From positions 62,001 to 126,000 of the forward strand of contig JAEURX010000017.1 in assembly GCA_016788885.1 (NCBI GenBank): 64,000 nt of DNA. The letters are read 5' to 3'. Below are positions 52,737 to 57,938 of the stretch, piece by piece (the first letter of the stretch is position 1; each line of letters starts with the position of its first letter). The notes under the pieces are model-generated. The model made no database searches. It was not told the origin of the DNA and worked only from the letters and a program-made list of their open reading frames with translations. Source of the DNA: Nitrospira sp. Its GTDB lineage: Bacteria; Nitrospirota; Nitrospiria; Nitrospirales; Nitrospiraceae. A program made the position numbers and the translations under genes.

Positions 52737-53759
52737 CTAGACCGAGGACACCAGCACCTGCTCGATCGACCCGGCCACAGGATACAGTTCCGTCCTGGAA
52801 AATCCCGCAGCCGCAAACATCTGCTCGTATTCACGAAACGTGTAGGCGTCCCCTTCCGGTGTGGTGGCGAGCATGATCAAGCTAAATTCCGCGACCGGCG
52901 GCGGCGTCACACGGTCGTCGTGCGGGATGAATTCCAACGTGATGACCCGCCCGCCAGGCGCCAACGCCCGATGAACCTTGCGCAACAGCGCCTCGCAGGT
53001 CGGCACGGAAAAATGATGGAGAAAATTCGTGAGCAGGACGAGATCGTAGCCGGACCCTAAATCCTGCTGGAATGCATCGCCGGCGATCGTGTGATAGCGC
53101 GACTCGAGGCCGGACTTCTGGGCTAGCTCGCGGGCCACCGTCAATACGTTGGGCCAATCCAGGGCCGTCACTTCAGCCTCAGGACACCGGGCCGCAATCT
53201 CGATGCCGAACAGCCCGTGCCCGGCTGCAACATCCAATACCTTTTTTACGTTCGGCTGCGACTGTCGCACGAAGATGCCGATTTCCTCTGCCGGCTTGAC
53301 CATCATCGGGATCATCGAGCGCGCGAAATCGACCCAGAGCGGATGCTCCGGCGTGACCGTGCCGGCGTCGCCCACCACGGTTCCTCCTTTACGTACCGCC
53401 TCGGTCAAGTTGTCGAAGGCAGCGATGAACTTCGGCGCATGCAAAAACCCGAGGACCGACCCCATGTAGGCAGGCGACCGCCGGTCGAGAAACACCTGAC
53501 TGTCCGGCGTCAATTTGTACCGATCGCCTTCTTTGGTGAGGAAGCCTTGGATGGTGAGGTAATCTGCCAGGATGCGCACGCCGCGCTGGGCTGCGCCGCA
53601 ACGCTCGGCGAGGGCCGGCACCTGGTCATGCCCCAATCCGATGGCGGTGAAGAGATCCAACTCGACAGCGGCCTTGAGCGCCTGTGAACGCTGGTACGCA
53701 TTCGCGGTTTGGAAGAACAACTGCGGGGTCGGCCCACCGGCCGGCTCGGGTTTCAACAT
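52737..53759 (-). CDS. SAM-dependent O-methyltransferase-like protein with dimerisation domain
   Basis: 340 residues from ATG 53759. An N-terminal winged-helix dimerisation domain (AYQRSQALKAAVELDLFTAIG, GVRILADYLTIQGFLTKEGDRYKLT) precedes a class I methyltransferase domain with SAM motif VKKVLDVAAGHGLFGIEIAARCPEAEVTALDWPNVL, the motif DLVLLTNFLHHF and GGRVITLEFIPHDDRVTPP. This is the architecture of small-molecule O-methyltransferases. No biosynthetic partners lie beside it, so the acceptor is unknown. Confidence 0.93.
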   Translation of the reverse strand: MLKPEPAGGPTPQLFFQTANAYQRSQALKAAVELDLFTAIGLGHDQVPALAERCGAAQRGVRILADYLTIQGFLTKEGDRYKLTPDSQVFLDRRSPAYMGSVLGFLHAPKFIAAFDNLTEAVRKGGTVVGDAGTVTPEHPLWVDFARSMIPMMVKPAEEIGIFVRQSQPNVKKVLDVAAGHGLFGIEIAARCPEAEVTALDWPNVLTVARELAQKSGLESRYHTIAGDAFQQDLGSGYDLVLLTNFLHHFSVPTCEALLRKVHRALAPGGRVITLEFIPHDDRVTPPPVAEFSLIMLATTPEGDAYTFREYEQMFAAAGFSRTELYPVAGSIEQVLVSSV

Positions 53760-53919
53760 CGGCAACACTCCTCGGTTCGATGGTGAAGGCCATACGACGG
53801 ATCGGCATGGGCGAATTGTAATCCTTTGCGCGGATTGATGCGAGGGCAGGACAGGAGCGCGTCGGCTGACAGGATTCACGGCGAGGCGAGAGCACGAACC
53901 GGGGCAGCGGGCATGTCCC

Positions 53920-56900
53920 TCAATGAACCATCGGCTTGTGCGTCAGCTTCACCTCAGTGCCGGCAGGGAACGCCGGGCCCAATCGAATGTGCCGCGAAGG
54001 CCCTCGCAGCGTGACGCGCATCACATGGCCGTCCCACTGCCACGTGATGGTTCCTCCGGGAATGGCCAGGTTCGACACGGCCATCGGCTGCGCAAGCCAG
54101 GCCGGAGTGATGCCTGCCCCGATCACCACTGAGGGCACTGCCGCCGTCTCATCGACGTAGGCCAGCATGTCCTGCTGCAGCAACAGTAGCAACGCCGCCG
54201 TTTCATAGTCCGGCGTAACGGCCAGCTCATTGTGCCAGCCCCTCGCATATTGCCATCCGTCCGCCAACTCATCCGTGATCGACCTTGCGCTGTCCCAGGT
54301 ATATAACCCGGGAGAGGCCTGTCGGCTCCACGCGTGATGGAGCGTGCTCCACACCACCTCCGGCCGCCCCGAGCGCAAGGCCTGATGGGCCTGTGCCAAT
54401 TGGCCCGTAACCGTGCCCCGCTCCTCCGTGGGACGATAGGTCACCATCGGCTGGCCCAACTGATGCTTCCGGAGAGCGGACCCGACCAACGAACGCAGTC
54501 CCGTCGGTGACGCGCCGCCGTCCTGAGTCCCATCGGGAAACTGCCGCATCCAACTTTCTTGGAGACTCTGTGCCTCCGTTCGCCAACGCGCCGCATAGTG
54601 GCGCTTCCCGAGTCGTTCAGCAAACTCGGCGGCAGCCAGGAGGCCGCGATAACTCACGGCGTTCACATAGCGTACCGGCCAGTCCTCGCCGACCCGCCCG
54701 ACAATCACCCCGTCGCGGGCCGGTTGAGCCAGCACCGCCGTCCTGGTCTGGCGAAGATGCTGGAAGTCATGCGGAGCCGGCACCGTGTAGGATTCCACAA
54801 TGGGCGAGCGGGCCTCCATCATCTCCTCGATTCGCCCGACCTTTCGCAGCAGATGCGGCCATAACCAGTCGTCGTGCACCGGATCGGCAATATAGCCGGC
54901 GGACTCGGTGAGCGCCCAAATCGCCAGGCCCGGCGCGTCGGCTTCCGGCCCTGATCCTCCCGCGAAATCATGCGTCGCCAAAAACTGCGAGAGCACCCGG
55001 CCGACTTTGGGATCTCCGGCACGGGCCAGCGCCGCCGTGATATAGGCCCCCTGCCGATGCCAGGCGCGATAGAACAGGGCCGGATCGCCGGGTCGCGTTT
55101 CATCATCGACCAGGCTCATCATCAGATGGCTGATTTGGGCATTCATGGACGCCTGCATACGCGGGTCGGGCAACGCCAGACGCGCGCGTTTCGGCGCATC
55201 CCTGTACGAGCGCTCCATTTCCACAGGCGGCTGCAGATCGGAAAGGACCAGACGAATCTCCTCGCCGGCTTTGGCTGACGACGCCGCGAATGCGATCCGC
55301 GCATAACCCCACCCGGCTTCCCCGCTCCAGGACGTGGCCGTCGATTGCGCAGTCATCCAGCCCGGCTGATTCTCGTCCCCCAACGTAATGGCCGCAGGAG
55401 CGGGGGTGGCACTCAGTGCCCACCGATGATTCACCGTGAGCTGTCCCGCATCCTGGCTCAGTGCGGTGACCGGTCCTCCAGCAGGCCCCACGCTTCGAAT
55501 CACAATCACCGGCACGTGTGGCGTCTCGTTCTTCAATCGAAGCTCCCAACGAGTCGCATCCAGCCTGGACCAGGTGGCGTGATAGTACGGCGTCTTCGTC
55601 ACGATGGCAGGAATGGTCGCATGGGTGGCCGGCCCGAATTCCTGCGTGATCACGTTGAGCGGCACAGTCTGACTGATCACCACCGGCAACCCCTTGGCAT
55701 CGCAGAACCACAGCGACACGCCGAAGCTCGGTGTCTGCGGGCTAAAGTCCCCGCCCGGTTCATGGTAGGCCGTGCCGCCCTCCGGCGCTCCTGGGACCGC
55801 AAGCGGCACATGACCGACCGATCGCGGCCAGGGGCGCGCCGGGTCCTGCTCCATCATCGTCGTCATCAATTCGCGCTGCGGGGTGAACTGTGTGGCCGAA
55901 TGAGCGGCGGCTTGAAATTGTTGCCAGTTGTTGAACGCGACACAACAGAGCAGCAGCGCCGTGAGACTCAGCACGATCCGACGGCCAGGCCCGACGGCGC
56001 CGAATGCCGCCACCGCGAGCAGCAGTGGCAGAAAATTCAAACTGTAGACAAAGGTCTCTTCGCCGTAGAGGAGATGCAGCACGAATTCAAACAGCAGCAA
56101 GCCGCCAAGAACCAGTCGAAACCGCACTTGTCGATCCGACACTAGAAATCGCCACAGCCCGTTCAGGAGCAACAGGGACCAGAGGACGACGGCCACACGC
56201 CCAAGCCAGCCGGCCGAACCGGGTGAGGAAAACTGGAAGGTCAGCCGATCCGCCAGGCGGAAGGCGTCCGCCTTCGATTGCGCGTAAGCGTCATCTTTCA
56301 CAAAGCGGACCGTCGGCGCGACGAGGCTGTGAAATACGAAGGAGGAGACAATATTGGAGATCCCCCCGGACTGCGGGTGATTGATAAACGAGGTCTCCGC
56401 GCGGTGGCCGATGAAAAATTCCGACGAGGGAAAGATGAATTTCTGAACACCCCAGAGCAGCACCACCAGACAAAGCGCATTCACGGAGAGCTGGACCGCC
56501 TGCTTCCAAGGCCATCGGGCCAGACTGACGAGCAGGCCGGCCACCCAATTGGTCACGGTGAAACTGAGCGTCAATGCGCTGGCGACCACGTAGGCACCGG
56601 CGCCGAACGTCCGCTGCTCGGCACTGAGCAGCAGCACCAGTGCCAGCATGATCGACAACGAGCCCCAGGAATAGGAGTTGGGGATCGGAAGCCAAAACAA
56701 GGCTGCTGCGCTACAGAGGCCGAGCAGCGTGAACAAGATCGCATCGATGAAGCGACAGCCCAGCAGACGAAACAGGAGGTACAGCGTGCCGCCCCAGAGT
56801 CCGGCGACCAGGCCGCTGACCAACAACACGGCGCGTAACGGGCTGACCGAGAGGCCGTGCTTCACCAGATAGACCGGTACAAACGTGATTAAGGAGAACA

Positions 56901-57165
56901 GGGGATGCACCGACGTGCGGTAATGATCGTCATGCACGCGGGTCATGTTCGAGATTTCGCGAAGCGTGTCGGCCTCGAACCAGAAATCCATCGACTGAAA
57001 GAGAAACGATGGGAGCGCACGGGCGATGAAAAGACACGCAACCGTCACCGCCAGACCGAAGAGCACGGCCATCAGCCAATCCATTCGATTGAGACCCGAA
57101 TGGCTGGAGGGAGGCGTAGGTCCCGGCAGCTCCGGAATGTCCAGTTCATAGTCGTGCGCGGCCAT
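53920..57165 (-). CDS. Giant membrane protein: GT39-like N-terminus fused to alpha-toroid domain
   Basis: 1081 residues from ATG 57165; the frame is open to 57303, which would add a non-signal extension. The N-terminal ~430 residues have about 9-11 membrane helices (MDWLMAVLFGLAVTVACLFIARALPSFLFQ, VHPLFSLITFVPVYLVKHGL) and resemble GT39/GT-C-type mannosyltransferase membrane domains. A periplasmic beta-rich middle part (ISQTVPLNVITQEFGPAT, TRWELRLKNETPHVPVIV) follows. The last ~420 residues are helical repeats (YRAWHRQGAYITAALARAG, AGYIADPVHDDWLWPHLLRKVGRIEEMM, NAVSYRGLLAAAEFAERLGKRHYAARWRTEAQSL), like the (alpha/alpha)6 toroid of glycoside hydrolases. The domain reading is mine and moderately secure; no catalytic pair is identified. 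Confidence 0.8.
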   Translation of the reverse strand: MAAHDYELDIPELPGPTPPSSHSGLNRMDWLMAVLFGLAVTVACLFIARALPSFLFQSMDFWFEADTLREISNMTRVHDDHYRTSVHPLFSLITFVPVYLVKHGLSVSPLRAVLLVSGLVAGLWGGTLYLLFRLLGCRFIDAILFTLLGLCSAAALFWLPIPNSYSWGSLSIMLALVLLLSAEQRTFGAGAYVVASALTLSFTVTNWVAGLLVSLARWPWKQAVQLSVNALCLVVLLWGVQKFIFPSSEFFIGHRAETSFINHPQSGGISNIVSSFVFHSLVAPTVRFVKDDAYAQSKADAFRLADRLTFQFSSPGSAGWLGRVAVVLWSLLLLNGLWRFLVSDRQVRFRLVLGGLLLFEFVLHLLYGEETFVYSLNFLPLLLAVAAFGAVGPGRRIVLSLTALLLCCVAFNNWQQFQAAAHSATQFTPQRELMTTMMEQDPARPWPRSVGHVPLAVPGAPEGGTAYHEPGGDFSPQTPSFGVSLWFCDAKGLPVVISQTVPLNVITQEFGPATHATIPAIVTKTPYYHATWSRLDATRWELRLKNETPHVPVIVIRSVGPAGGPVTALSQDAGQLTVNHRWALSATPAPAAITLGDENQPGWMTAQSTATSWSGEAGWGYARIAFAASSAKAGEEIRLVLSDLQPPVEMERSYRDAPKRARLALPDPRMQASMNAQISHLMMSLVDDETRPGDPALFYRAWHRQGAYITAALARAGDPKVGRVLSQFLATHDFAGGSGPEADAPGLAIWALTESAGYIADPVHDDWLWPHLLRKVGRIEEMMEARSPIVESYTVPAPHDFQHLRQTRTAVLAQPARDGVIVGRVGEDWPVRYVNAVSYRGLLAAAEFAERLGKRHYAARWRTEAQSLQESWMRQFPDGTQDGGASPTGLRSLVGSALRKHQLGQPMVTYRPTEERGTVTGQLAQAHQALRSGRPEVVWSTLHHAWSRQASPGLYTWDSARSITDELADGWQYARGWHNELAVTPDYETAALLLLLQQDMLAYVDETAAVPSVVIGAGITPAWLAQPMAVSNLAIPGGTITWQWDGHVMRVTLRGPSRHIRLGPAFPAGTEVKLTHKPMVH

Positions 57166-57938
57166 CTTCGCTCGAGGACGTGTGTGCAGAGAATGAGTGG
57201 CCCTTACCAGATCCATACCGGCTCGGCATCCTGGGTAAACAAGACTTCCCTTCGCGCCTTCATAATGCGCGAGCGGAGAAGTGAACGATGTCAGCAGAAA
57301 CAACGGAAAGGCCCGTGATCGCAGGAACTCTCGATGAGACGCAGGGTGTAGGACGTACGCGCAGGGGGGACGGTCTCATCTCGCGCCGCCGAATGGACGG
57401 CGTATGTCCTGTCGGCTGCACAGCAGCGAATGTATTCCTAGCAGACTGACTACTGCAGATCAACCTTTCATACCTCAGGCTACCGGGCGAAACGTTTTTG
57501 TGTCGGCGAGGAACACTCTGATGGACGCATCGTTCCACAATCAGACACATGGCCGAACGGCTGAGGCAATTAGAGTACGGCCACGTGCACAATGGGAATA
57601 GGGAGGTGAAACAACAGAGTCCATCTCCTCTGATATAAAGGCCGCGACACGATACTCATGTCACCACGACGCACCGTATCAACGAACCCCTACCTTGTAC
57701 TTTGAATATTGATCCGATAGCATCCATCGCGCCTGCAGTTGAGGCGCTGTGCCTCCCTGCTCATGTGCAACCTCACTGAGCACACGAAGGTTCGCGGGAG
57801 CCGAGCCGGAATTCAAACGACTGGCCGGGCAAACGCCAGCGATCCCAGTGCAGGACGACTGGGATCAGGCTGCGGAGTGTCGAGAAACCGGATAACTCCA
57901 CAACACAACGACATGTTCAATCGCAAAGGAGGGGCACC
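57166..57938. other. Long intergenic region between giant membrane gene and RidA-like gene
   Basis: About 770 bases between two divergent genes, with no gene that I can support. It holds the dyad annotated at 57841-57866 and the RidA ribosome site AAAGGAGGGG at 57925-57934. Both promoters should be here, but none is obvious by eye. Confidence 0.4.
57841..57866. promoter_or_regulatory. 9-bp inverted repeat upstream of the exported RidA-like gene
   Basis: GATCCCAGT (57841-57849) and ACTGGGATC (57858-57866) are exact reverse complements around an 8-base centre. The site is 73 bases before the start at 57939. The spacing and symmetry suit an operator or an RNA hairpin; no T-run follows. Confidence 0.5.

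Follow-up and report, generated by a model that had tools for sequence, protein, structure and literature searches.

The window, a stretch of 64,000 nucleotides from Nitrospira sp., carries on its minus strand an open reading frame of 1081 codons, which is present as the original prediction had described it (Table 1). The predicted product starts with a polytopic GT-C-like membrane domain and continues into a beta-sandwich, an (alpha/alpha)6 toroid and a small beta module at the C-terminus. An in-frame TTG at 57303, 138 bases upstream of the ATG, is an alternative longer start, and residues 1-24 show no conservation; the ATG start is thus a tentative one. Like the O-methyltransferase gene just downstream, a Methyltransf_2 gene lies near the fusion gene at five further loci of Nitrospira, but the remaining orthologues have none nearby. 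The synteny of the source locus (LemA, DUF2207, a sigma-54 regulator, GNAT and the methyltransferase) gives no functional clue.

Table 1. Features of the fusion gene and its downstream neighbour, in positions of the window.
Feature	Position	Strand	Basis
1081-residue GT-C/toroid fusion gene	53920..57165	(-)	ORF (ATG 57165 to stop 53920), homologues, purifying selection
GT-C membrane domain, residues 25-428	55882..57093	(-)	predicted fold; VIA structural alignment
First extracytoplasmic loop motif, W62 F63 x x D66 x x R69 ... R83 ... H87 P88 L89	56899..56982	(-)	alignment conservation
Beta-sandwich domain, residues 449-664	55174..55821	(-)	model secondary structure
(alpha/alpha)6 toroid, residues 665-1005	54151..55173	(-)	model and structural alignment
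C-terminal beta module, residues 1012-1077	53935..54132	(-)	model secondary structure
Gln705 (Asp of WxRD in others)	55051..55053	(-)	alignment
E741-A742-D743 of the GPEADAPG loop	54937..54945	(-)	alignment
Gly826 (putative general acid in others)	54688..54690	(-)	alignment; acidic pair E827-D828 next
Leu992 (Glu of HYWTAAE in others)	54190..54192	(-)	alignment
Downstream O-methyltransferase (Methyltransf_2)	52737..53879	(-), same strand as fusion gene	Pfam

The open reading frame is a genuine gene. Full-length homologues share 61-86% identity with its product, a second copy (paralogue, 61% identical) is found in the source genome, and dN/dS is about 0.1 across both halves. That an error of assembly or gene calling has joined two genes can practically be dismissed, since dozens of continuous full-length copies are found in independent genomes, including the complete N. 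defluvii chromosome and cyanobacteria; what speaks for such an error is that a few copies are split (L045, L039 and L029). One of these is broken between the modules (512 + 633 residues) and the others within the toroid, and they could be products of fission, pseudogenes or assembly errors.

In a phylum-wide scan, the fusion protein was found in the genus Nitrospira only, most genomes of which have 1-3 copies of the gene each. A scan of species genomes added full-length or near full-length carriers in cyanobacteria and in one contig labelled Tatlockia. The copy on the latter (L050, 1-6032) is about 56% identical to the cyanobacterial ones and adjoins a transposase-like fragment, and the contig may be misbinned. 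In the same scan, the region of about residues 430-1075 stands alone in Bryobacterales, Verrucomicrobia, Fimbriimonadaceae, Armatimonadetes and Planctomycetota, and these toroid-only homologues group into Acidobacteria, Verrucomicrobia, Armatimonadota and Planctomycetota. Two of them (L051 and L052) have N-termini that by eye resemble signal peptides. Among 388 cyanobacterial genomes of a class-wide scan, 32 gave a match, about 20 with the fused form and 8 with the GT-C half alone (~450 residues). Since each module exists alone and joined elsewhere, this is a true two-module fusion. Two matches of the phylum scan (L012 and L013), considered as a shared domain, were chance matches to unrelated reading frames, and viral contigs searched for homologues gave no matches. 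Nitrospira sp. RSF1 has only a 424-residue toroid fragment (L053, 9953-11227) with mostly canonical residues and His at position 826, which is probably a remnant. Near the toroid-only gene of a member of Fimbriimonadaceae (L054, 8439-20779), two sulfatase genes lie within about 10 kb, which suggests that the ancestral toroid module degraded a sulfated glycan.

The N-terminal half is, by its predicted fold and its conserved loop Asp, a member of the GT-C superfamily. The model of this domain contains about 11 membrane helices and, when folded alone by AlphaFold, reached a pLDDT of 76.5 and a pTM of 0.82. The best structural matches of residues 25-430 were ALG12 (VIA Z 21.0), Pmt (19) and PglB (18.5), followed by ArnT, AftB and AftD (17.4 each). 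All rows above Z 11 are of the GT-C type, and the first row of another type appears at Z 5.4; the GT-C-like N-terminus of the original prediction was thus borne out. In the alignment of 74 sequences, 64 include the GT-C domain, and W62, F63, D66, H87, P88, E370, T371 and F372 are invariant in all of them (64/64). The first-loop motif reads WFxxD..R..NM..H.R..(x)HPL, and its Asp66, in the loop that follows membrane helix 1, is a candidate catalytic residue as judged from the alignment. The prediction had looked to this loop for the DxD or Asp-Glu motif of GT39; an invariant Asp is there, but the Asp-Glu pair of GT39 is not.

For the C-terminal half, the predicted beta domain and glycosidase-type helical toroid were likewise upheld, both by the model and by its alignment with solved structures. 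Just ahead of the beta-sandwich, the conserved module starts with WPRSxGHVxLAxPG...YHEPGGxFSP, which is kept in the standalone homologues. Residues 449-1081 matched solved glycosidase-type structures of GH78, GH15, GH65, GH94 and GH116 with Z of 18-23.5. The top value was for GH78 (23.5), followed by dextran dextrinase 9ju0 of GH15 (21.6 over 467 residues), GH65 (21.2), GH15 glucoamylase 1lf6 (20.1), a GH116 exo-beta-D-arabinofuranosidase (19.6 over 521 residues) and GH94 (about 19). These values are too close for a choice of family; those of GH78, GH116 and GH94 differ little, and the sequence matches are weak. The beta-sandwich plus (alpha/alpha)6 toroid of GH15 is present in the model, but the curated cut-off is not reached. 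In the full-length model (pLDDT 79.0, pTM 0.68), the mutual placement of the two halves is unreliable.

Family libraries gave almost nothing for this protein. No Pfam model matched it at E<=1, and the single NCBIfam match, to TIGR01577 (oligosaccharide amylase), scored 15 bits against a cut-off of 820.7. The Pfam model of GH15 did not match the source protein, and its best match among the relatives had an E of 4.6e-4. Searched directly by sequence, the fusion protein matched no solved structure, and profile searches against the structures gave weak matches only, such as that to ExoMA2 (E 0.024). A search of the literature for GT-C/GH fusions found no description either. Across the libraries and papers searched, we thus met no family described with this architecture, in keeping with the original impression that the architecture was not a recognised one, and the two ends do not belong to one known family of this length.

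The assignment of the active-site positions of the toroid relies on motifs and on placement in the loops, not on superposed coordinates; these positions were compared between the main Nitrospira clade (n=29, source protein included) and 33 sequences outside it. Four loops precede inner helices, namely WxRD (705), GPEADAPG (741-743), GRMD (826) and HYWTAAE (992). In weak HMMER alignments, the WxRD loop is matched by W-S-R-D of the bacterial glucoamylase 1lf6. The GRMD loop lies in the stretch immediately ahead of the helix for which 1lf6 and ExoMA2 (8ic6) align. We take the GRMD-loop region to be the expected general-acid site of enzymes of the 1lf6/ExoMA2 type. Outside the main clade, position 705 is Asp in 33/33, position 826 is Asp in 20/33 or Glu in 9/33 (D/E in 29/33), and position 992 is Glu in 33/33. 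In the main clade, by contrast, the 28 readable sequences of 29 have Gln (25), Pro (2) or Glu (1) at 705, and all 29 have Gly at 826 and Leu at 992. E741 and D743 are kept on both sides, in 32/33 and 33/33 sequences outside and in 28/29 each inside, where the exception is an incomplete sequence. The GH15 arrangement of a general acid before helix 6 and an Arg-Asp of the -1 subsite is therefore missing here, Gly826 and Gln705 standing in its place. The pair of catalytic Asp/Glu residues that the original prediction proposed to look for in the toroid is accordingly lacking from the canonical positions of the source protein (Gln705, Gly826 and Leu992). Since the main Nitrospira clade as a whole lacks these carboxylates, canonical trimming is unlikely there. 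The prediction that the protein builds and trims, or builds and binds, an envelope glycan thus named the right pair of alternatives, of which trimming in the canonical manner is the unlikely one here. Judged by their residues, the cyanobacterial copies and three Nitrospira copies that keep them may be capable of canonical trimming.

The main Nitrospira clade is monophyletic with support of 100/100 and has a stem of 1.15 changes per column. Within it, dN/dS of the toroid is 0.07-0.15 in most pairs (maximum 0.195), similar to the GT-C half. The canonical residues have been lost and yet dN/dS is low, so the toroid is kept for a function that is not, or not exactly, the ancestral chemistry. Residues 827-828 are acidic in 15/15 sequences of the source protein's orthologue group, and Glu988, which precedes 992 by one helical turn, occurs in 29/29 of the main clade, where the others have Trp (Arg in two); relocated carboxylates are therefore possible. 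In four sequences of the paralogue group, however, an acid at 826-828 is missing (L062, which is the own-genome copy, L034, L077 and L082). Another set of altered loops occurs in a cyanobacterial subclade (L146-L154 and other loci), where GPEADAPG is changed to xPEADIPA and GRMD to GKME or GKMD; from the alignment, the pocket of the toroid looks to have drifted here as well, though in part.

The donor sugar can be approached from the cyanobacterial neighbourhoods. In cyanobacteria, copies of both kinds (fused and GT-C-only) have in their vicinity a gene for decaprenyl-phosphate phosphoribosyltransferase (NF008978, over the cut-off), which is within about 10 kb of the family gene in 17/28 genomes. 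Genome-wide, NF008978 is present in 26/28 cyanobacteria with the family and in 4/20 without it (Fisher p 2.5e-7, with no phylogenetic correction and with genomes that are not independent). A YqeG-type HAD phosphatase often adjoins the cyanobacterial copies, and the clusters at L044 and L046 also contain an SMR transporter; components of both kinds occur in pentofuranose systems that have been published (PMC11127046). This clustering points to a lipid-linked pentofuranose donor. In the pathway of Citrobacter, a HAD-UbiA protein makes undecaprenyl-phosphoribose, which is moved by a flippase (PMC11127046). The source genome also has a HAD-UbiA fusion (NF006088, 674 bits), with the layout of the characterised Citrobacter PPPRS. 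In Nitrospira, however, the HAD-UbiA gene is not beside the fusion gene, and it is over the cut-off in all but one of 29 Nitrospira genomes, including those without the fusion. Its presence within Nitrospira was thus rejected as a functional link, and the link to a pentose rests on cyanobacteria, from which a similar donor may be supposed for Nitrospira. As for the kind of pentose, full-length DprE1, which is needed for the arabinose form, is absent from the source genome (best match 25 bits) and is found in only 2/28 cyanobacterial genomes with the family. This weakens decaprenyl-phospho-arabinose as the donor, and ribofuranose is the simpler guess. The HAD-UbiA polyprenyl-phosphoribose synthase-like gene of the source genome (L061, 6079-9841) has an SDR gene and two small genes of glycosyltransferase-like type next to it; a gene of this type is nearly genus-wide in Nitrospira and rare in sister genera.

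Other neighbourhoods in Nitrospira concern the acceptor. A copy with canonical residues (L063) is beside genes for GDP-mannose dehydratase, GDP-fucose synthase and a flippase, and the copy of UBC2 (L047) lies in a polysaccharide-type cluster. The paralogue of the source genome (L062, G000:C63, 5550-13173) has as neighbours a class GN sortase (TIGR03784), the VIT/VWA protein targeted by it (TIGR03788) and a GT87-like gene that is divergent. From these contexts, the acceptors would be envelope or exopolysaccharide glycans. In N. defluvii, a similar neighbourhood has a 712-residue protein and a divergent GT87 gene (related loci L041 and L033). The neighbourhoods of the paralogues hint at glycosylation tied to a sortase system.

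We propose that the fusion protein is a GT-C transferase of the inner membrane, probably a pentosyltransferase facing the periplasm, whose C-terminal module was recruited from a secreted six-hairpin glycosidase like those of GH15, GH78 or GH116 and now mainly binds the acceptor glycan; we put the probability of this reading at about one half. From a polyprenyl-phosphate carrier, the GT-C half would transfer a sugar to an extracytoplasmic glycan; this sugar is most likely a pentofuranose, for example ribofuranose. The polyprenyl-phosphate pentose would be bound at the membrane face, and Asp66 as a candidate base would deprotonate the acceptor glycan, as precedents among GT-C enzymes suggest. 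In the source clade, the toroid lost the canonical Asp of the -1 subsite, the general acid and the conserved Glu under continued purifying selection, and its most likely role is to bind the acceptor glycan and present it, as the CBMs of EmbC, AftD and GT136 do. The fusions of cyanobacteria and the three Nitrospira copies with canonical residues could also trim or transglycosylate. That the GT-C domain is a scaffold which binds a glycan or lipid carrier and transfers nothing is very improbable: no curated GT family matched it, but its loop and E370-T371-F372 residues are retained throughout the family.

As the donor, a different lipid-linked sugar (mannose, glucose, fucose or aminoarabinose) is a serious though lesser possibility, in which case the phosphoribosyltransferase link would reflect lineage history of cyanobacteria. 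The top structural matches do include mannosyl- and aminoarabinosyl-transferases, the nucleotide-sugar genes beside L063 belong to mannose and fucose, and the paralogue adjoins a GT87 gene; against this stands the strong proximity of the cyanobacterial copies, GT-C-only ones included, to the genes of the phosphoribosyltransferase and of its phosphatase. It is rather unlikely that the toroid of the source clade still acts as a glycosidase or transglycosidase whose acid has moved to E827/D828, whose other carboxylate has moved to E988 and whose sugar specificity has been altered by the change of Asp705 to Gln, so that the protein both builds and trims. The acidic pair in the orthologues, the invariant E988, the retention of E741, D743 and D999 and the low dN/dS all agree with such rewiring, and Cgs provides a precedent, a phosphorylase that controls length in a membrane GT (PMC10901819). 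However, the paralogue-group sequences without an acid, the own-genome copy among them, the loss of an Asp705 that is invariant elsewhere and the long stem branch argue against it. A wider version is doubtful, namely a so far undescribed class of envelope enzymes in which one polypeptide adds a lipid-linked pentofuranose and edits or senses its product through the on-board toroid, which would be catalytic ancestrally, as in cyanobacteria, and rewired or sensor-like in Nitrospira, where it would govern chain length or acceptor choice.

Small binding domains in the periplasm are known from GT-C enzymes. For a complete glycosidase-type toroid on a GT-C domain, Pfam and NCBIfam have no model, and the papers searched did not bring one up. 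The toroid alone, the GT-C half alone, the fusion with canonical residues and the fusion without them form a natural series, which is suited to testing how a degrading enzyme turns into an accessory domain of biosynthesis. In addition, a pentofuranose-type modification is indicated for the envelopes of cyanobacteria and possibly of nitrite oxidisers.

Among known systems, GT136 of Citrobacter is a GT-C enzyme that adds pentofuranose and carries a periplasmic CBM (PMC11127046). Like the fusion protein, GT136 (ORF12 of Citrobacter youngae) combines a GT-C domain with a C-terminal periplasmic domain for glycan binding, a role that we infer for the toroid, and its partners, a HAD/UbiA polyprenyl-phosphoribose synthase and a flippase, resemble the contents of some cyanobacterial clusters. 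The two differ in the C-terminal domain, which is an immunoglobulin-like CBM in GT136 and a glycosidase toroid here; moreover, the source locus has no three-component pentofuranose operon, whereas the synthase gene adjoins the cyanobacterial homologues. The mycobacterial EmbA/B/C, AftB and AftD share the GT-C fold (Z 12-17) and extra extracytoplasmic domains, and their pentofuranose donor is made from polyprenyl-P-ribose, but their C-terminal domains are CBMs or others instead of a toroid, and full-length DprE1 is lacking in the source genome. Cgs (GT84-GH94) also unites a glycosyltransferase and a toroid-type GH module in one membrane protein, and this module has a role within the membrane synthase beyond its own activity (PMC10901819). 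In Cgs, however, the transferase is a GT84 enzyme of GT2-like fold that uses a nucleotide-sugar donor, and all soluble domains are cytoplasmic; the fusion protein has no GT84 domain, its transferase half being of the GT-C fold. GH15 glucoamylase and dextran dextrinase, GH78 rhamnosidase, GH116 ExoMA2 and GH94 phosphorylases share the layout of beta-sandwich and (alpha/alpha)6 toroid, whereas the fusion protein is far below their family cut-offs, lacks the canonical residues and is joined to a GT-C domain. In the oligosaccharyltransferases PglB/STT3, a periplasmic domain follows the GT-C domain at the same position, though its fold and the chemistry differ. The fusion is a previously unmodelled form of GT-C enzymes with additional periplasmic domains.
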